Assembly (NCBI RefSeq): GCF_004661485.1 | Contig: NZ_PQVH01000001.1 | Location: 1 to 64,000, forward strand | DNA from: Methylotenera oryzisoli | GTDB lineage: Bacteria; Pseudomonadota; Gammaproteobacteria; Burkholderiales; Methylophilaceae | Direction: 5' to 3' | DNA length: 64,000 nt | Shown: piece by piece, positions 2,246 to 28,509 of the stretch | Layout: every line of letters starts with the position of its first letter | Numbering within the stretch: the first letter of the stretch is position 1 | The notes under the pieces: model-generated | Database searches by the model: none | Told to the model about the DNA's origin: nothing | What the model saw: only the letters and a program-made list of their open reading frames with translations | Position numbers and translations under genes: made by a program

Positions 2246-4018
2246 TTATGCGCTAAATTGCTTTTGATATAACTTGGCATAGTAACCATCTAGCGCCATC
2301 AGCTCTTGATGGGAACCAGACTCAACAATACGGCCGTGCTCCATCACCATGATGCGATCTGCGTTTTCGATTGTGCTCAAGCGATGCGCAATCACAATAC
2401 TGGTACGATTACGCATCAATGCATCCATCGCTTGCTGTACGTGCTGCTCAGACTCAGTATCTAGCGCGGATGTTGCTTCATCCAGTAATAAAATTGGGGC
2501 GTTTTTAAGAATAGCGCGCGCAATCGCTAGGCGCTGACGCTGACCACCCGACAGTTTCACGCCTCTATCGCCAATTTCATTTTGCAAACCATTCGGCAAT
2601 TGTTGGATAAACTCCCAGATATGTGCCGCTTTTGCTGCAGCAACAACCTCTTCTTCCGTGGCACCACGTAGCACACCATAAGCAATATTATTGAAGATAG
2701 TATCATTGAATAAAATGATATCTTGACTCACCAATGCAAATTGTTGGCGCAGATTTTTTAGCTGTATAGTGCTGCAATCGACACCATCTAACAACACTGC
2801 ACCCTGCTCTAACGCATAAAACCTAGGGAGCAAATTGACCAGCGAGGTTTTACCACCACCAGAGCGCCCAACCAATGCAACCTTTTCACCCGCTTTGATG
2901 CTAAAGCTTAAATTATCCAATGCAGGCTTTGGGGTGTCTGCATAATGCAAGGTAACATTTTTAAATTCGATATCGCCTTTTGCTCGCTCTATCGTCACAC
3001 TCCCCTGATCCACTTCAGGCTGACTATCTACAACCTCAAAAATACTTTGTGCTGCGGTTAAGCCGACTTGCAGGTCTTCGTTGGCAGCTGCAATATGTTT
3101 AATAGGTGAAATTAGCATTAGCAAGGCACCAACAAAAGCGGCAAACTCACCAACACTAAAATTACCAATGGCATAGTAAATCACCAAACCCAATGCCAAG
3201 GCTGCAAACAACTCAACCACAAAACTACTAAGGCCCGCGATACGTGCCACGCGCAACTCTACTTTTCGGTTATTGGCAATAATTTGAGCAAAACGATTAA
3301 ATTCAAAGTCTTGTGCGCCAAAGATTTTAACGATTCGCTGCCCAGCAATGGCCTCTTCTGCAGTTTTAGTCATTTCGCCTACACTGTGTTGCACCTGCTT
3401 GGCGTTTGACTTTAACTTAGGCGTCATCTTTTTTAGGTACATTGCAATGAATGGCAGCACTACCGCAAAAATCAACGTCAAACGCCAATCCAGATAGAGC
3501 ATATAGCCAATCAAGCCCACTACGGTTAACGCATCGCGCAACACGTTCATCCAAGAACGAGTAGTTGCAGTTGAAAGGCGCTCTACATCATAGGTGAACT
3601 TAGAAACCACAGAACCAGCTGACCTTGCATCAAAATACTGCACCGGTAGCAACATCAGCTTGGCAAACATTTCTCTACGGAAGTCTTCAACCACCCGCCT
3701 TGCAACCACGCGCATACAGTAATCCGAAATAAAACCAGCAATACCTCTTGCCACCATTAAAGCAACGACCATCAATGGTAATAATATAGTCTGGCCTTCT
3801 GCCTTTTTAGCGAAGCCTTCGTCAGTAACTTGCTTGATTAACGCTAGAAATGCGGTATTACTGCCAGCTAGCAACGCTAGCGCAACAATACTCACTATAA
3901 AAATGTATTTGTATTGCCACGCATAATGAAACAAACGCAAATATAAAACTTTTGCGTTTGGTATATGCACTGCTGTGTTGATTTTAGATTTGGTTTTTTT
4001 TAGATTTGAGTTAGACAT
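2246..4018 (-). CDS. msbA: Lipid A export ATP-binding/permease MsbA
   Basis: A half-size ABC exporter that flips core-lipid A across the inner membrane. Of 590 residues, roughly 1-340 form the six-helix membrane domain. The rest is the ATPase: Walker A GRSGGGKT (384-391), signature LSGGQ (489-493), Walker B ILLLDE (509-514) and an H-loop in IVIAHRLST. Length matches MsbA (about 580). Placement between exbBD and lpxK supports lipid A transport rather than a drug exporter. The start ATG at 4018 follows exbD by 55 bp. Confidence 0.95.
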   Translation of the reverse strand: MSNSNLKKTKSKINTAVHIPNAKVLYLRLFHYAWQYKYIFIVSIVALALLAGSNTAFLALIKQVTDEGFAKKAEGQTILLPLMVVALMVARGIAGFISDYCMRVVARRVVEDFRREMFAKLMLLPVQYFDARSAGSVVSKFTYDVERLSTATTRSWMNVLRDALTVVGLIGYMLYLDWRLTLIFAVVLPFIAMYLKKMTPKLKSNAKQVQHSVGEMTKTAEEAIAGQRIVKIFGAQDFEFNRFAQIIANNRKVELRVARIAGLSSFVVELFAALALGLVIYYAIGNFSVGEFAAFVGALLMLISPIKHIAAANEDLQVGLTAAQSIFEVVDSQPEVDQGSVTIERAKGDIEFKNVTLHYADTPKPALDNLSFSIKAGEKVALVGRSGGGKTSLVNLLPRFYALEQGAVLLDGVDCSTIQLKNLRQQFALVSQDIILFNDTIFNNIAYGVLRGATEEEVVAAAKAAHIWEFIQQLPNGLQNEIGDRGVKLSGGQRQRLAIARAILKNAPILLLDEATSALDTESEQHVQQAMDALMRNRTSIVIAHRLSTIENADRIMVMEHGRIVESGSHQELMALDGYYAKLYQKQFSA

Positions 4019-4073
4019 GGGCTAACGTCTATGTAGAATTGGAAGAAAATGCAAAAGGGTTGAGTGTTAAAAC

Positions 4074-4499
4074 TCAAGACCCTGATTGCACTTGTGTGGC
4101 AAATGTAATTTTTGAGTAGCCAGCCACTCGTGATGCTTCCATCACATTCACAACAGACTGATGCGTAGTGTTCGCATCTGCATTAATTACAATGGTTGGC
4201 TCCTGAGTGCCCGCCTTTGCTGCTGCTTGCAATGCTGCGCTGATTGCAGCCACTGAACCATCAGCCAAAGGCTTACCGTCAATCAAATATTTACCTGTAG
4301 CATCTACAGCCACTTCAATCGTCAACGGTTTATCCTGAGGCGCATTTGCCTCGGCAGTTGGCAGATTAATCTGCAACTCGTTCGTACGTGAAAATGTAGC
4401 GCTGACAATCAGAAAAATAATGATCACCAACAATACATCAATCAACGGAATAAAGTTGATTTCAAGCTCTTCGTGTTTCTTCCCACGCTGAAAATCCAT
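4074..4499 (-). CDS. exbD: ExbD/TolR family biopolymer transport protein
   Basis: Inner-membrane protein that, with the ExbB-like partner, couples proton motive force to envelope work. The 141-aa sequence has a short basic cytoplasmic N-terminus and one membrane helix (INFIPLIDVLLVIIIFLIVSA). The helix includes the essential aspartate of the family (IDVLL, about residue 22). A periplasmic domain follows. It is encoded 28 bp after exbB. In this conserved context (exbBD-msbA-lpxK-kdsB) the pair may serve TonB-type transport or lipid A-related functions; which one cannot be told from sequence. Confidence 0.92.
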   Translation of the reverse strand: MDFQRGKKHEELEINFIPLIDVLLVIIIFLIVSATFSRTNELQINLPTAEANAPQDKPLTIEVAVDATGKYLIDGKPLADGSVAAISAALQAAAKAGTQEPTIVINADANTTHQSVVNVMEASRVAGYSKITFATQVQSGS

Positions 4500-4527
4500 T
4501 TGGTGCTTCCTTAAATTATCGCGCTAA

Positions 4528-5133
4528 TTACTGACGTTCGCCATGAATAATTTCAACCAACTTAATGGCCTGCTGCTCCATCTCAATCAGTAACGCATCA
4601 ACTTTTGTACGGAAATAGCGATAGGCAATCATCGCCGGCACGGCGACCACAATACCAGCTGCGGTATTGTACAAGGCAACTGAAATACCACGAGCGAATT
4701 GAGCAACATCATGCCCTTGCGTAGTAAACGCACCGAACAACTCAACCATACCAATCACTGTCCCTAACAAACCTAGTAGTGGTGATACGGTTGCAATCGT
4801 GCCCAAAGTAGAAAGATACCTCTCCATTTGATGCGCAACCGCACGCGCTGTTTCTTCAATAGACTCTTTAGTCACTTCACGTGAGTTTTTAGCATTGGCC
4901 AGAGCCGTTGCAAACACGCGACCCAATAGAGAATGTTGCTCCAGACGATTAATAGTATCTTTAGTGATACCGCCCTTAGCTAGCCAAGCCTGCAATTCTG
5001 GCAATAGATTTTTAGGAGACACTACGTTCTCGCGCAACGCAAAACTACGCTCACCTATAATTGCTACAGCAATAACTGATGCAATAACAAGTGGCCAGAT
5101 AGGCCAGCCGGCAGCTAGAATGATTTCCCACAC
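4528..5133 (-). CDS. exbB: MotA/TolQ/ExbB family proton channel protein
   Basis: A 201-aa inner-membrane protein with an N-terminal helix (WPIWPLVIASVIAVAII) and two further helices. These lie in the TVSPLLGLLGTVIGMVELF and GISVALYNTAAGIVVAVPA regions, which carry the ExbB/TolQ/MotA signature. It forms a pentameric channel around ExbD. The start is GTG at 5133, supported by AAGGGG nine bases upstream. It heads the minus-strand operon. A good -10 hexamer (TATAAT, minus strand, about 5253-5259) lies upstream, but I see no convincing -35. Confidence 0.92.
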   Translation of the reverse strand: MWEIILAAGWPIWPLVIASVIAVAIIGERSFALRENVVSPKNLLPELQAWLAKGGITKDTINRLEQHSLLGRVFATALANAKNSREVTKESIEETARAVAHQMERYLSTLGTIATVSPLLGLLGTVIGMVELFGAFTTQGHDVAQFARGISVALYNTAAGIVVAVPAMIAYRYFRTKVDALLIEMEQQAIKLVEIIHGERQ

Positions 5134-22667: not shown

Positions 22668-23363
22668 ATGACCACAATTAGCAATCGCTTGCAAGATATT
22701 CTAGCAACTATCCAATCTGCAGCTGCCTCCAGCCCCAGCCACCAACAGGTGCAATTGCTCGCAGTAAGTAAAGCACAGTCGGCAGCCGCGATACGCGATG
22801 CTTACGCAGCTGGACAGATCGCTTTTGGTGAGAACTACAGCCAAGAAGCACTGGAAAAACAAAAGCAGCTCACAGACCTCGCCATAGAATGGCACTTTAT
22901 TGGCCCGATACAAAGCAACAAGACCCAATTGATTGCACAAAACTTTAGCTGGGTGCACAGTGTAGACCGCCTGAAAATTGCCCAGCGTCTGAACGAGGCC
23001 AGATCATCTATATTGCGACCACTGCAGGTATGCATACAAGTCAATGTAAGCAATGAAGAGTCCAAAAGCGGTGTATTACCAGACCAGCTGGAAGCCTTAG
23101 CGGTAGCGATTAACGTGCTACCTAATTTAAAACTGCGCGGTCTGATGGCAATTCCAGCCCCGACTACAGACCAAGCACAGCAGATTGCACAATTTAAACA
23201 AGTAAGAGAATGCTATGATGCGCTTATCCGCAAGGGATTTGCACTAGATACGCTGTCTATCGGTATGTCTAATGACTATCAAACAGCCATTACCCAAGGG
23301 GCAACCATTGTGCGTATCGGCTCGGCGCTGTTTGGTGCAAGAGCACCTCTAAAGGCAGCCTAG
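22668..23363 (+). CDS. yggS: YggS family pyridoxal phosphate homeostasis protein
   Basis: A 231-aa PLP-binding TIM-barrel protein without known catalytic activity that keeps free PLP and amino acid pools balanced. The PLP lysine is in LLAVSKAQ (about residue 31). GENYSQEALEK, WHFIGPIQSNK and SIGMSNDYQTAI are family signatures. Upstream of proC and yggT, in the conserved pilT-yggS-proC-yggT cluster. Confidence 0.95.
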   Translation: MTTISNRLQDILATIQSAAASSPSHQQVQLLAVSKAQSAAAIRDAYAAGQIAFGENYSQEALEKQKQLTDLAIEWHFIGPIQSNKTQLIAQNFSWVHSVDRLKIAQRLNEARSSILRPLQVCIQVNVSNEESKSGVLPDQLEALAVAINVLPNLKLRGLMAIPAPTTDQAQQIAQFKQVRECYDALIRKGFALDTLSIGMSNDYQTAITQGATIVRIGSALFGARAPLKAA

Positions 23364-23475: not shown

Positions 23476-24282
23476 ATGAAGATTAACTTTATTGGCGGCG
23501 GCAATATGGCGCGCGCAATTATTGGCGGCTTGAAACAAAATGGTTTTGATATGTCAGACATTACCGTGCTGGAGCCGGATGCACAAAAAAGAGCAGAGTT
23601 AGCGCAAGACCTTAATGTCCAAGTTACCGACACTTATGCTGAGTTTCGCAACACTGATGTGATTGTGCTCGCAGTTAAACCGCAGCAACTTAAGGAAGTT
23701 TGCCAGCAACTCAACCCTGTACTGACATCGCAACTGGTCGTTTCGATTGCCGCCGGCGTCAGAAGCAAAGATATGTCCACTTGGCTTAATCACTACCAAG
23801 GGATTGTGCGCGTCATGCCAAACACTCCGGCGCAAATTCAGGCAGGCGTCTCCGCACTTTATGCGATGCCGCAAGTTACGCAAACACAGCGTGAGCAAGC
23901 CACGACCATTCTTGCAGCGGTGGGTAAAACCTTATGGCTGGATGATGAGGCAAAAATGGACGCGGTCACTGCGATATCAGGTAGCGGCCCGGCTTATGTG
24001 TTCTACTTTATAGAAGCATTGCAAGCTGCAGGCGTGGCATTAGGCTTGAAAGATGAAGAAGCCAACATGCTAGCGCTGCAAACATTTGCCGGCGCCAGTT
24101 TACTAGCAACGCAAAGCAACACTGACGTTAAAACTCTGCGCGCGCAGGTTACCTCTAAGGGTGGTACAACGGAACAGGGTATCCTGAGTTTGGAATCTGC
24201 AGATATCAAACAAATCATTGCTCAAGCGGCCAAGGCGGCGGCTGATAAGTCAGTGACATTAGGAGACCTGCTAGGTCAATAA
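23476..24282 (+). CDS. proC: Pyrroline-5-carboxylate reductase
   Basis: Last step of proline synthesis: reduces pyrroline-5-carboxylate with NAD(P)H. The 268-aa protein has the Rossmann motif INFIGGGNMARAIIGGL, VLAVKPQQ, RVMPNTPA and the C-terminal signature beginning at SGSGPAYVFYFIEAL and running through VTSKGGTTEQG. Start at ATG 23476. The gap of 112 bp after yggS allows an own promoter. yggT follows 16 bp later. Confidence 0.96.
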   Translation: MKINFIGGGNMARAIIGGLKQNGFDMSDITVLEPDAQKRAELAQDLNVQVTDTYAEFRNTDVIVLAVKPQQLKEVCQQLNPVLTSQLVVSIAAGVRSKDMSTWLNHYQGIVRVMPNTPAQIQAGVSALYAMPQVTQTQREQATTILAAVGKTLWLDDEAKMDAVTAISGSGPAYVFYFIEALQAAGVALGLKDEEANMLALQTFAGASLLATQSNTDVKTLRAQVTSKGGTTEQGILSLESADIKQIIAQAAKAAADKSVTLGDLLGQ

Positions 24283-24298
24283 TTACCTAGGAAACACT

Positions 24299-24874
24299 AT
24301 GCTCAATAACGCCATTTTATTTTTGCTGCAAGCAGTGCTCAGCATACTGAGCTTTGCCTTTTTACTACGTTTTTATTTTCAACTGACCAAGGCGCCATTT
24401 CAAAATCAACTCGCGCAGTTAATCGTCACCGTGACTAATTTTGCAGTCAAGCCTATGCGCCGCATTTTGCCTAGCATTGGCAAAATAGATCTATCTACGC
24501 TGGCACTAGCTTACCTCACACAACTTATTCTCAGTGTATGTACTTTATGGCTCAAAGGCTTTCCTATTCTCATTGCAGGAAGTACGGTTTGGATCGTTAT
24601 CTTTGGCATAGCACTCATTGGTATCGTCAGCATTAGCCTATCTATTTTCCTGTACGCGGTGTTAATTCAAGCCATCTTAAGCTGGGTTAACCCGCACACC
24701 CCTATTGCACCAGTTTTAAATAGTCTGACTTATCCGGTGTTGCGTATCTTCAGAAAATACATCCCGCCTGCGGGAAATTTTGACCTGAGTCCATTGGCGT
24801 TTATCATTACGGCACAGTTATTGCTAACTACTATACTAATTCCATTAGAAAACAACTTACTATCTACGTTGTAA
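24299..24874 (+). CDS. yggT: YggT family integral membrane protein
   Basis: A 191-aa membrane protein with two YGGT repeats, each with two helices: LRFYFQLTKAPFQNQLAQLI...MRRILP in the first and LSWVNPHTPIAP...LRIFRKYIPP in the second. The NPHxP and LRIFRxxIPP motifs identify the family. Function in bacteria is unknown, with osmotic stress or membrane biogenesis suggested. It follows proC by 16 bp and precedes the dynamin-like gene by 14 bp, so the three are probably cotranscribed. Confidence 0.93.
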   Translation: MLNNAILFLLQAVLSILSFAFLLRFYFQLTKAPFQNQLAQLIVTVTNFAVKPMRRILPSIGKIDLSTLALAYLTQLILSVCTLWLKGFPILIAGSTVWIVIFGIALIGIVSISLSIFLYAVLIQAILSWVNPHTPIAPVLNSLTYPVLRIFRKYIPPAGNFDLSPLAFIITAQLLLTTILIPLENNLLSTL

Positions 24875-24888
24875 GTTAAGATAACACC

Positions 24889-26976
24889 ATGAGTATATCG
24901 ATATCTAATTCTGTACCACTTCAGGCAACGGCTGATATTTCGACGTTAACTTCGAAAATTACAGAGTACAGTCAATGGCGAGCAAACCTTATTGCTACGA
25001 TTGACGAATATATCGATTGGACGGGCCATGCTGAGGCGCTCAATGCCATACAAGAATTAAGACTGTATGATATTAAAGAAATCTTAAAAAAGGATCAGTT
25101 AGTATTAGCACTCTTGGCCGAGTTCTCACGCGGCAAAACCGAGACCATTAACGCCCTCTTCTTTTCCGACTTTAACCAAAGACTGCTACCGAGTGAGCCA
25201 GGGCGCACAACCATGTGCCCTACCGAGATTTTCTGGAGTGATAAAGAGGAGCCTTGTATCAAACTCCTACCTATTGAAACCAGACAATCTGACGACACGC
25301 TCAGTTACCTGAAAACTACGCCAGATGTCTGGCACAAAATTAGGCTAGATATTGATTCTGCCGACGCAATGAAGCAAACCTTGCGCGCACTGGTACAAAA
25401 ACGAGACGTCAGCATTGATACCGCAAAAAGGCTAGGTTTCTGGAATGAAGATGACACCAGTATGCAACGTCAGTTTGCCGAAAGCGGAAAAGTTGAGATA
25501 CCCGTTTGGCGTCACGCGCTAATCAACTACCCTCACCCGCTTCTAAAAAATGGCTTGGTAGTATTAGATACACCAGGCCTTAATACCATGGGCGCAGAGC
25601 CTGAGCTTACGCTTAGCATTCTGCCCAATGCTCAAGCGATTTTATTTCTAACCGCAACAGATACTGGCATTACTAAATCTGACATGCAGATTTGGAACAG
25701 CTACGTACAAAAGCGTGCAGCTCATAAACTGGTTGTATTAAACAAAATTGATATTCTTTGGGACGGGCTGGAGTCCGATACCGAAGTTGAGCAACTGATT
25801 CAAAAACAGATTAAAAATACAGCGCATGAACTAGGTTTAGATGCACATAATATTTTTGCTATCTCAGCCCAGAAAGCACTTGTTGCCAAAATTAGAAAAG
25901 ATGAAACGCTACTTAAACGTAGCGGCATCAATAAACTGGAAAACTCGCTTGCCGAACAAATGGTGCAGTCCAAGCACGAGATTCTAGGCAGAGCAGTTGT
26001 CACAGAGTGCTCCAATATGATTAGGGCATCTCGGAAAATTGCCCAAATCCGCGTTGACAGTATAAAAAATCAACTCGCAGAACTGAGAGAACTACAGCAT
26101 AAAAGCCATGATGCTTCCAAAGAGATTCTAGCCAAAGTCGTTGCTGAGCGAAAACGCTATGAAGCATCGATTCTTACCTTTAACCAAGGTAGTGAAAAAA
26201 TCAAACGATTAAGCAGTAAATTACTACGCCACTTAAGCCTTGGCTATTTAGACACAACGCTCGCACAAACCAAACAAGACATGGGCGACAGCTGGACAAC
26301 CGTTGGACTTAACCGCAACATTCGTGAAATCACTAGGTTAGCGATTAACCTTGCAGAGGAAATCAGCATCGAGGGACAAATTATTAAAAAACATGCGGAT
26401 GATCTATACCAACTATTTTGGAGTAAGCATGGCTTTGAGAAAACAGAAGCGGTTAAACTCGATATGCGCAATTTTATTGAGAACATTCAAGCGCTAGAAA
26501 AAGTGACAGAAGAGTTCTGCACCAGCCCAGTCAACCTCCTGACAGAGAAAAACTTCTTAATTCGCAAGTTCTTCTTGGGCTTGGGCGTACAAATTCAGGC
26601 TATATTTGAACAAGCGCATCTTGATTGCACCCACTGGCTCAATCAAGTGATTGGTGAGTTAAAGAATCAAATTAATGTACACAAAACTGCGCTGGATCAA
26701 CGTGCAGAGACACTGATGGAGTCACACAACAACGCAGACAAAGTGATTAAAAATATAGCGAATGCTGAAAAGAACCTGACCAAATATCAAGATCAATCTA
26801 ATCAACTGGATGCTATCTTACTCAAGCTCATGCGCAGTGCCAAGTTTAGTACCGAGGATAACAAAGCGCACGCAATAGAAAGCAACATGGTGCATTTAAA
26901 TGTAACGGCTAAAACTAACACGAGTGAGCGTGAAATGGGTAAATCAAACGTTAAGTTTGATGCCCCTTTTATTTAG
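24889..26976 (+). CDS. Bacterial dynamin-like GTPase
   Basis: A 695-aa large GTPase of the Dynamin_N family. The GTP-binding set is visible in order: G1 AEFSRGKT (77-84, with Ala in place of the usual first Gly), G2 threonines 107-108 in GRTTMCPTE, G3 DTPG (227-230) and G4 NKID (285-288). Residues from about 370 to 650 are helical and rich in heptad-like charge patterns, as in the stalk of dynamins. A more hydrophobic segment (about 556-573) might be a membrane-contacting paddle. No clear membrane helix or partner dynamin gene is adjacent. Family members remodel or fuse membranes, but the job here is unknown. It is 14 bp after yggT. Confidence 0.85.
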   Translation: MSISISNSVPLQATADISTLTSKITEYSQWRANLIATIDEYIDWTGHAEALNAIQELRLYDIKEILKKDQLVLALLAEFSRGKTETINALFFSDFNQRLLPSEPGRTTMCPTEIFWSDKEEPCIKLLPIETRQSDDTLSYLKTTPDVWHKIRLDIDSADAMKQTLRALVQKRDVSIDTAKRLGFWNEDDTSMQRQFAESGKVEIPVWRHALINYPHPLLKNGLVVLDTPGLNTMGAEPELTLSILPNAQAILFLTATDTGITKSDMQIWNSYVQKRAAHKLVVLNKIDILWDGLESDTEVEQLIQKQIKNTAHELGLDAHNIFAISAQKALVAKIRKDETLLKRSGINKLENSLAEQMVQSKHEILGRAVVTECSNMIRASRKIAQIRVDSIKNQLAELRELQHKSHDASKEILAKVVAERKRYEASILTFNQGSEKIKRLSSKLLRHLSLGYLDTTLAQTKQDMGDSWTTVGLNRNIREITRLAINLAEEISIEGQIIKKHADDLYQLFWSKHGFEKTEAVKLDMRNFIENIQALEKVTEEFCTSPVNLLTEKNFLIRKFFLGLGVQIQAIFEQAHLDCTHWLNQVIGELKNQINVHKTALDQRAETLMESHNNADKVIKNIANAEKNLTKYQDQSNQLDAILLKLMRSAKFSTEDNKAHAIESNMVHLNVTAKTNTSEREMGKSNVKFDAPFI

Positions 26977-27057: not shown

Positions 27058-28509
27058 TTACATCAAAATAATATCAAACGACTCTTGCGCATAGCTAGGC
27101 TCAACCTGCAGAGAAATAGGCTTAGCAATAAAATCCGACAGATTGGCTAAACTCTGCGATTCTTCATCCAGCAACATTTCGATTACTTTCGGTGCAGCAA
27201 GCACTCTCAACTCTCGTGCGCTAAACTGGCGCGCCTCACGTAACAGTTCACGTAAAATTTCATAACAGACAGTTTGTGCGGTTTTTAACTCACCCCGCCC
27301 CTTACATGTTGAGCATGGTTCACAAAGAATATGCGCTAAACTTTCTCGCGTTCTTTTACGCGTCATTTCCACTAAACCTAGTGGTGTAAAGCCATTAATG
27401 CCAGTACGCGCCCGGTCACGCGCCACAGCTTTTTGCAGTTCATCTAACACGGCGGCACGCTGCACGTCTTCATCCATATCAATAAAATCAATAATGATGA
27501 TGCCGCCCAGATTACGTAACCGTAATTGGCGCGCGATGGATTGCGCTGCTTCCAGATTGGTTTTAAAGATGGTATCGGACAGGTTTTTTCCACTCACAAA
27601 ACTACCAGTATTGACATCAACCGTGGTCAAAGCTTCAGTTTGGTCAAAAATCAAATAGCCGCCAGACTTTAACTCCACTTTGCGTGACATAGCTTTTTCG
27701 ATTTCCTGCTCGATACTATATAAGTCGAACAGCGGCCGCTCACCTTGGTAATGCACGAGTTTATCTAAGGCGGAAATTGCATATAAATTAGAAAAATCCA
27801 CCAAGCGCTGGTAAGTTTCACTGGAGTCCACACGCACCATTTCCGTATCCGCACATAATACGTCACGCAACACACGCATAGGCAAGTTCAAGTCTTGAAA
27901 AATCAATGTGCGCTCAGGTACTGTAATGCTCTGCTGCTTAATGTGCTTCCAGGTTTTATTTAAGTAATCAATATCTGCCAATAACTCTTCGTCAGTAGCG
28001 GCTTCTGACATGGTGCGAATGATATAGCCGCCAACCCTGTCTTCAGGCAGCAAGCCTAGCAAGCGGGCTTTTAAAGACTCACGCTCAGCCTCTATTTCAA
28101 TACGCTGCGACACCCCAATATGCTCTTGCTGAGGCAAATACACCAGAAAGCGCCCGGCAATACTGATGTGGGTCGTCAATCGTGCGCCTTTAGTGCCAAT
28201 TGGCTCTTTAATCACCTGCACCATGACAGACTGGCCTTCGTGCAACACTTCTTGAATTGGCCGCTTTAACTCAGCATCACCGCACGCTAAAACATCGCCT
28301 GCATGCAAGAAAGCAGCACGCTGCAAGCCAATCTCGACAAAGGCCGACTGCATGCCTGGCAGCACCCTGCACACAACGCCTCTATAGATATTACCGACTA
28401 ATCCTAGTGATGAGCTACGTTCAATCTGCAACTCTTGCACCACGCCGTTTTCCATCATGGCAATGCGTGTTTCTTGCGGTGTTACGTTAATTAGTACTTC
28501 TTCGCTCAA
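27058..28509 (-). CDS. rng: Ribonuclease G
   Basis: A 483-aa endoribonuclease that matures the 16S rRNA 5' end and decays mRNAs. It has an N-terminal S1 domain (about 38-115) and the RNase E/G catalytic core with metal ligands D298 (TTVDVNTG) and D341 (IIIDFIDMD). The zinc-link cysteines are in CEPCSTCKGRG (396-402). It lacks the long C-terminal scaffold of RNase E, which fixes it as RNase G. It is preceded by maf with a 27-bp gap, as in E. coli yhdE-rng. Confidence 0.96.
   Translation of the reverse strand: MSEEVLINVTPQETRIAMMENGVVQELQIERSSSLGLVGNIYRGVVCRVLPGMQSAFVEIGLQRAAFLHAGDVLACGDAELKRPIQEVLHEGQSVMVQVIKEPIGTKGARLTTHISIAGRFLVYLPQQEHIGVSQRIEIEAERESLKARLLGLLPEDRVGGYIIRTMSEAATDEELLADIDYLNKTWKHIKQQSITVPERTLIFQDLNLPMRVLRDVLCADTEMVRVDSSETYQRLVDFSNLYAISALDKLVHYQGERPLFDLYSIEQEIEKAMSRKVELKSGGYLIFDQTEALTTVDVNTGSFVSGKNLSDTIFKTNLEAAQSIARQLRLRNLGGIIIIDFIDMDEDVQRAAVLDELQKAVARDRARTGINGFTPLGLVEMTRKRTRESLAHILCEPCSTCKGRGELKTAQTVCYEILRELLREARQFSARELRVLAAPKVIEMLLDEESQSLANLSDFIAKPISLQVEPSYAQESFDIILM

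Follow-up and report, generated by a model that had tools for sequence, protein, structure and literature searches.

Why does a single dynamin-like gene lie directly behind yggT, and which part of its protein has selection kept there? The question arises from the window, that is, the whole 64,000-nt stretch analysed (positions 1 to 64,000 of contig NZ_PQVH01000001.1 of Methylotenera oryzisoli, assembly GCF_004661485.1). The ORF behind yggT scored 51.2 bits with the Pfam Dynamin_N model (cut-off 27), and phmmer matched it to BDLP1 of Nostoc punctiforme (2j68; E = 2.5e-9) as well as, likewise distantly but significantly, to mitofusin-2 and IniA. All four motifs by which the GTPase domain of bacterial dynamins is recognised (GK(S/T), the switch-1 Thr, DxxG and NKxD) are present, and the preliminary description, which held the motifs other than the P-loop to be normal, is borne out by GRTTMCPTE, DTPG and LNKID (Table 1). 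On its sequence, the ORF is a bacterial dynamin-like protein, of a type hereafter named A, for which GTP hydrolysis and membrane remodelling are the predicted family functions. The P-loop itself had been called unusual; alignment counts indicate instead that AEFSRGKT is the family consensus. That is, among the 99 rows with P-loop letters in an alignment of 104 (the window protein, 23 named relatives and 80 order-level regions), Ala comes first in 98 and Arg stands before the GK position in all 99, and in 68 class-level proteins the P-loop opens with Ala in 61 and with Gly in seven, Arg always preceding GK. BDLP1 also has Arg before GK (GDMKRGKS). The reading of the window P-loop as an oddity was therefore rejected, as the Ala/Arg pattern runs through the whole family.

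Table 1. Features of the dynamin locus; positions are those of the window
Feature	Position	Strand	Evidence
yggS (PLP homeostasis protein), opens the conserved cluster	22668..23363	+	TIGR00044, 248 bits
proC, pyrroline-5-carboxylate reductase	23476..24282	+	TIGR00112, 269 bits, cut-off 197
yggT, integral membrane protein, two YGGT domains	24299..24874	+	PF02325, two stretches
bacterial dynamin-like protein of type A (yggT-linked), 695 aa	24889..26976	+	PF00350; phmmer; trees
P-loop / G1 AEFSRGKT, aa 77-84	25117..25140	+	motif reading, alignment
G2 / switch 1 GRTTMCPTE, aa 105-113	25201..25227	+	motif reading
G3 / switch 2 DTPG, aa 227-230	25567..25578	+	motif reading
G4 NKID, aa 285-288, within LNKID	25741..25752	+	motif reading
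A-type tip motif FCTSPVNLLTEKNFLIRKF, aa 543-561, paddle position	26515..26571	+	AF2 secondary structure, alignment
rng (RNase G), convergent, downstream of the dynamin, 81-bp gap	27058..28509	-	NF008689

The window genome showed no YGGT gene other than the one preceding the dynamin. Intergenic gaps of 16 bp (proC-yggT) and 14 bp (yggT-dynamin), with no terminator-like match in either by the terminator scan, agree with the earlier impression that the dynamin is joined to proC-yggT; the scan found seven terminators against 5.2 expected from shuffles. Within yggT, at 24780-24807, there is a promoter-like match (10 of 12); matches of this kind are no commoner than chance in the region (seven found, 8.4 expected from shuffles), and the dynamin may have a promoter of its own. 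At many loci yggU (DUF167) stands between yggT and the dynamin. The short gap in the window may be due to the fact that its genome has no DUF167 match. In E. coli the order is yggS-yggT-yggU-rdgB, and the dynamin is absent from this place.

It had been asked beforehand whether the adjacency might be unique to this genome; this is excluded, as the linkage recurs across the class. Among 23 named relatives obtained from one scan, 18 of them titled Methylotenera, yggT lies upstream in 22, the remaining locus being cut by the end of its contig, so that it begins within the dynamin. One of these relatives, from Methylotenera mobilis (L037), has an A protein 89% identical to that of the window. At order level, 103 of 200 genomes matched, and the 80 regions taken (high-scoring ones plus hand-picked weak ones) divide into 49 of the A clade and 31 of a second type, B. 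Here yggT is upstream in 45 of the 49 A loci; in two of the other four it is more than 20 kb away, one genome has no YGGT match and one locus is at a contig edge. The class draw, in which 67 of 232 genomes matched, gave 68 distinct loci (29 + 39, one of 40 regions being a duplicate), 49 of them with yggT upstream of the dynamin; at one further locus, which opens a contig, only yggU is present, 12 adjoin mutM or coaD, and six show neither arrangement. In the phylum draw (27 of 299 genomes matched at E up to 1e-20) there were 26 loci besides that of the window genome, four of them duplicating class-draw loci: the 14 with yggT come from other orders than that of the window, and the 12 with mutM or mutY all come from the window's order. 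All 26 genomes fall in one class, the window's (Gammaproteobacteria), and the family is likely to be confined to it.

Closer to the window, conservation of the adjacency within Methylophilaceae was a point for checking, and the answer is mixed: it is kept in the window's own genus, whereas the regions taken from genera g26 and g27 were of type B. Among the Methylophilaceae genera sampled that had a match, A occurs only in the window's genus, in which 26 of 37 genomes have it full or nearly full, one has a remnant and 10, some of the genomes being incomplete, have none. A is thus dispensable within the genus. As a side observation, yggS and proC are some 1.4 kb apart (about 3156-4575) in one Methylotenera MAG locus (L039), compared with about 20-150 bases in the other named loci with both genes.

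The downstream side behaves otherwise. The rng gene follows A in 34 of the 49 order regions; in the 39 regions of the wider class set (L214-L252), 21 of which carry yggT, it was not found. Downstream genes thus change while the yggT side stays, which we counted in favour of a tie between A and yggT. Taken as a whole, the class-wide linkage of A to proC-yggT-(yggU) argues for A being functionally tied to the operon, as far as gene order can. The shared membrane role that had been suggested on the basis of gene order is helped by this to the extent of such a tie, but is not proven by linkage, because A has no transmembrane-like segment (see below) and because a distance-correlation test of co-evolution did not single out YggT as the partner of A. 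That is, over 39 loci with all five genes, of 49 given, the partial distance correlation with the dynamin was 0.41 for ProC, 0.29 for YggT and 0.25 for YggS.

These correlations are also part of the case for position without partnership, in which A would be a general-purpose dynamin kept in an old, slowly rearranging pilT-yggS-proC-yggT-yggU cluster and would share nothing but co-transcription with its neighbours. We regard this as a real possibility, if one that we are inclined to doubt. Not only do proC and yggS share the cluster of yggT in most order loci, but two order genomes have A beside rng with yggT at its distance of over 20 kb, and B likewise stays beside mutM with no obvious shared role. 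Position alone accounts less well for the window, where A still follows yggT closely despite the missing DUF167 match, and for the exchange of rng between order and class regions while the yggT side was kept.

A side-by-side second dynamin gene is usual among bacterial dynamins, yet not obligatory, RdcA being single as well. The description of the window dynamin as solitary holds for its locus, which has no adjoining second dynamin, but not for the genome, in which an unlinked dynamin B with 35% identity to A and the same P-loop with Ser is found on another contig (G000:C18:192932-194851). The order-level tree has 87 rows, 56 of them A and 31 B, and the two types part with full support. In a tree of 102 rows from order and class, B forms one clade (support 99), and the yggT-linked proteins are the remainder, spread over several branches; both trees were made by a quick method and contain some long branches. 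B is, by its sequence relationships, an old second paralogue, usually beside mutM: 28 of the 31 B loci of the order regions adjoin this gene, and the other three, all belonging to the same family as the window, sit between DUF971-ubiE and rpoH without it. None of the 31 has lost its P-loop. Most class and phylum loci that lack yggT likewise belong to B and adjoin mutM, mutY or coaD. MutM and MutY are glycosylases of the GO repair system, and the arrangement mutM-B-mutY was seen at L139, L157, L165, L244, L248, L258-L261, L264, L269, L270, L273, L274 and L277. One class-level genome (G316) has three family members on contig C1, at 621606, 1471766 and 2505548, one of them yggT-linked, one mutM-linked and one at neither locus.

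An unexpected result concerns A proteins in which the GTPase is gone. In the two genomes of family f33 that the analysis covered (G069 and G113) the protein at the A locus has lost the G-domain motifs: in G069 the P-loop reads GECGRARS and LHPTG replaces LNKID, and in G113, whose contig ends before the P-loop, the G4 position reads LHPAD. When compared with 13 intact A proteins, next to the window protein and L132 (all these rows having been picked by us), G069 shows reduced identity in the G domain, with 0.41 where the window protein reaches 0.56 and L132 reaches 0.60, and in the N-terminal helix (0.21, versus 0.36 and 0.34), whereas no drop is seen in the stalk (0.32, versus 0.27 and 0.32) or in the tip (0.50, versus 0.49 and 0.48).

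In genus g15 of family f15 the head is missing altogether. The A locus encodes a stalk-only protein of 328-339 aa in six of seven genomes, the seventh (90% complete, 500 contigs) having only B; the sister genus g77 has full-length A in 7/7 genomes, and the single genome of a third genus has no match. All six stalk-only proteins align with nothing but the C-terminal portion of the family (query positions 354-633 of 643), and so do three of them when compared with the model (positions 355-637); none of the g15 genomes gave a match to a separate A-type GTPase fragment. The first 40 residues of the stalk-only proteins may represent the former N-terminal helix, left when the head was excised, for which an hhalign comparison (E 0.003, probability 10%) is suggestive at most, and their tip has diverged (identity 0.33-0.38). 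The six ORFs are 47-92% identical to each other and have no internal stops, and at all six loci the start codon overlaps the yggU stop as ATGA. Their dN/dS of 0.18-0.44 over 15 pairs, in 10 of which dS exceeds 1, indicates purifying selection.

As far as motifs and alignments tell, two lineages have an A protein without a working GTPase and have kept its trunk at the same locus. This combination suggests that the stalk may serve a scaffold role of its own without GTP turnover in A. Naturally headless dynamins of this kind would separate the membrane role of the stalk from the contribution of GTP hydrolysis, which is hard to do in the laboratory, and they test the view of bacterial dynamins as adjacent GTPase pairs. 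A naturally broken-up dynamin is described in the available part of the LeoBC paper (PMC4159319), our only source for this protein of enterotoxigenic E. coli; there the gene is split and GTPase parts remain, whereas here the GTPase is gone and the stalk alone is retained.

B, with its G1-G4 motifs intact, is present in all eight genomes whose A lacks the GTPase, but only two lineages are involved, and a dependence of the GTPase loss on B is not significant. A bold generalisation, which we offer as rather doubtful, would be that the yggT-linked dynamins are membrane scaffolds in which selection acts on the trunk and its tip, and that the GTPase is an accessory removed at least twice, once together with the entire head and once through decay of its motifs; the stalk would then act alone, or the unlinked, usually mutM-side B would supply GTP turnover, in a two-locus hetero-oligomer with YggT as receptor. 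In its strict form, the proposal that A and B make up an unlinked hetero-oligomer, with B supplying the GTP turnover and A hence free to lose its head, seems unlikely to us. It draws on the eight genomes just mentioned and on the Campylobacter pair Cj-DLP1/Cj-DLP2, for which the accessible text of PMC6104087 has GTP turnover requiring both partners. The same text has both P-loops needed, however, and a further difficulty is that there are two independent losses only and that 19 of the 49 order genomes with an A locus show no second match. The Campylobacter proteins, which were among the first Foldseek matches of A, resemble the present case in that two paralogues occur in many genomes here too; they differ, as described in that source, in being encoded side by side in one operon, A and B being at separate loci and A being able to lack the GTPase.

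If the trunk is what matters, its shape and its tip become of interest. An AF2 model built from 23 close homologues (pLDDT 63, pTM 0.38, good only in the stalk) gave helices at 20-47, 53-68, 347-448, 471-514, 527-545 and 555-651, which in this low-confidence model fit a neck plus a trunk. The first Foldseek hits were BDLP1, IniA, Cj-DLP and LeoA, with TM-scores of 0.18 or so and a huge rmsd. Alignments with VIA-align reached Z 14.5 and an rmsd of 2.7 over 160 residues for mitofusins (neck), and Z 11.5 with an rmsd of 38 over 334 residues for BDLP1, an unrelated designed helix bundle scoring Z 12.0. The model supports, but does not prove, a dynamin architecture for A, that is, head, helical neck and long trunk.

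In the model, residues 546-554 fall between what seem to be trunk helices three and four, and the tip motif around them takes the form FC.DP.N(V/I/L)(M/L)TEK.F(L/M)(V/I)(R/K)KF(Y/F) across A. A loose version of the pattern, drafted after inspection of the alignment so that its counts are descriptive, occurs in 48 of 50 A rows, in 23/23 further named rows and in 0/31 B rows, and the motif remains recognisable by alignment in the pseudo-GTPase and stalk-only relatives. In the portion of PMC6715688 available, the BDLP paddle occupies the trunk-tip position to which the A tip corresponds. The window dynamin has no transmembrane-like segment (maximal hydropathy 1.18), and none of the 104 rows has a hydrophobic segment resembling a membrane helix (maximum 1.63; the maximal 19-residue value for YggT is 2.72). 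At the paddle position of the model, A carries a conserved motif seen in A alone, and no hydrophobic hairpin.

BDLP1, the best match by both sequence and Foldseek, shares the head and the long helical body, with 14% identity in the structural alignment; by contrast, A has only the short conserved tip in place of a strongly hydrophobic paddle hairpin, and its neighbour is yggT, not another dynamin gene. Mycobacterial IniA, too, has a canonical GTPase, neck and trunk, was purified as a soluble protein and has a lipid-interacting loop that needs R488 and K489, as far as the accessible sections of PMC6715688 go. The A tip also has K and R, but its motif is its own and the operon is another one.

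These observations are brought together in the reading that we tentatively favour, and whose chances we put not far short of even, namely that A is a peripheral membrane scaffold, its trunk tip docking at YggT and/or lipid and its action tuned by GTP. The protein would consist of a GTPase head, a long trunk and a neck probably formed by the N-terminal helix and the C-terminal end; it would be made together with YggT and be seated at the inner membrane as a peripheral scaffold, the trunk tip docking on YggT and/or acidic lipid. In most species GTP binding and hydrolysis would drive assembly and release, and a basal scaffolding by the trunk would survive without either. The conserved operon and the tip motif together suggest docking at the membrane beside YggT, and it is on this footing that we infer a YggT partnership. 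Against the reading stand the partial distance correlations, the lack of a transmembrane-like segment, the dispensability of A, the weakness of the AF2 model, and the divergence seen in the tip of the stalk-only proteins and in the N-terminal helix of the pseudo-GTPase.

As to the process being scaffolded, envelope or septum work is our leading guess by analogy, because the YggT-family proteins YlmG/SepG act in division in Streptomyces and in plastids. In the accessible parts of three papers (PMC2923531, PMC12358420, PMC4852450), ylmG is placed near sepF in the division cluster of Gram-positive bacteria, YlmG/SepG is involved in sporulation division of Streptomyces, and over-expression of YLMG1-1 alters plastid division in Arabidopsis. 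A point against a division role is that S. pneumoniae showed no apparent effect on division when its ylmG was inactivated, according to the text available from PMC2923531. The next guess, again by analogy, would be osmotic envelope stress, because E. coli YggT is connected with it; the available part of PMC4852450 ties this protein to osmotic regulation, and there the SepG authors call a functional overlap between YlmG and YggT unlikely, a further point against the division guess. Both bacteria and plastids have YggT/YlmG proteins, whose role is not settled, and a partner kept throughout a bacterial class would give a concrete handle on it. Among the literature matches listed, from a search that does not reach most subscription papers, there is no description of a class-wide yggT linkage, of the two-locus arrangement or of headless members.

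A soluble regulator of the RdcA/CrfC type would do something quite different, switching a membrane enzyme rather than bending a membrane, and such a role for A appears decidedly improbable. It would sit well with the lack of a transmembrane-like segment, and the part of PMC6510439 at hand gives an instance of an active GTP-free state, the K82A variant of RdcA, taken to lack GTP binding, fully activating DgcE. The first fold matches of A are membrane-remodelling BDLPs, however, no cyclase gene is among the cluster genes identified, and RdcA aligns with the family profile in segments of 3-8 bits only and has no phmmer match. E. coli RdcA (YjdA/CrfC) is a dynamin-like GTPase that also lacks a neighbouring dynamin gene; its P-loop reads GTMKAGKS, its helical half has no detectable relation to A, and its partner and target, in the same portion of PMC6510439, are RdcB and DgcE. 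In E. coli rdcB follows rdcA, and the neighbours of the window dynamin are yggT and rng. Homology over the C-terminal half and an adjacent rdcB, the marks of RdcA/CrfC regulators, were thus both not found for the window dynamin. A role in phage defence was rejected, the PADLOC models giving no family for either the dynamin or YggT at E up to 0.1, and in a search for viral relatives none of 13 pattern matches was one.

That the stalk-only and pseudo-GTPase forms are merely decaying, functionless pseudogenes is very improbable, since decay does occur in the family (the G026 remnant and the split A gene of G119, below) but the six stalk-only ORFs have the intact frames, the 6/6 start-stop overlap and the low dN/dS given above. 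Further stalk-only genes were searched for with a stalk profile, which matched in 189 of 399 order genomes. Among the matches listed, only the six known stalk-only genes fell below E = 1e-160, the next match being at 3e-61, and nearly all the others belong to frames of at least 600 aa. Those that do not are copies in G119, G113, G242, G083 and G166, which are short, split or possibly at a contig edge, and a 428-aa frame in G505. In G119 (C64:17089-18901) A is split into two overlapping frames, a GTPase part and a stalk part, by either a sequencing error or a fission. In G026 (C65:15242-15715), a small genome of the window's genus, a 198-aa frame matches A residues 82-182 and 601-660, apparently an A gene that is decaying by internal deletion.
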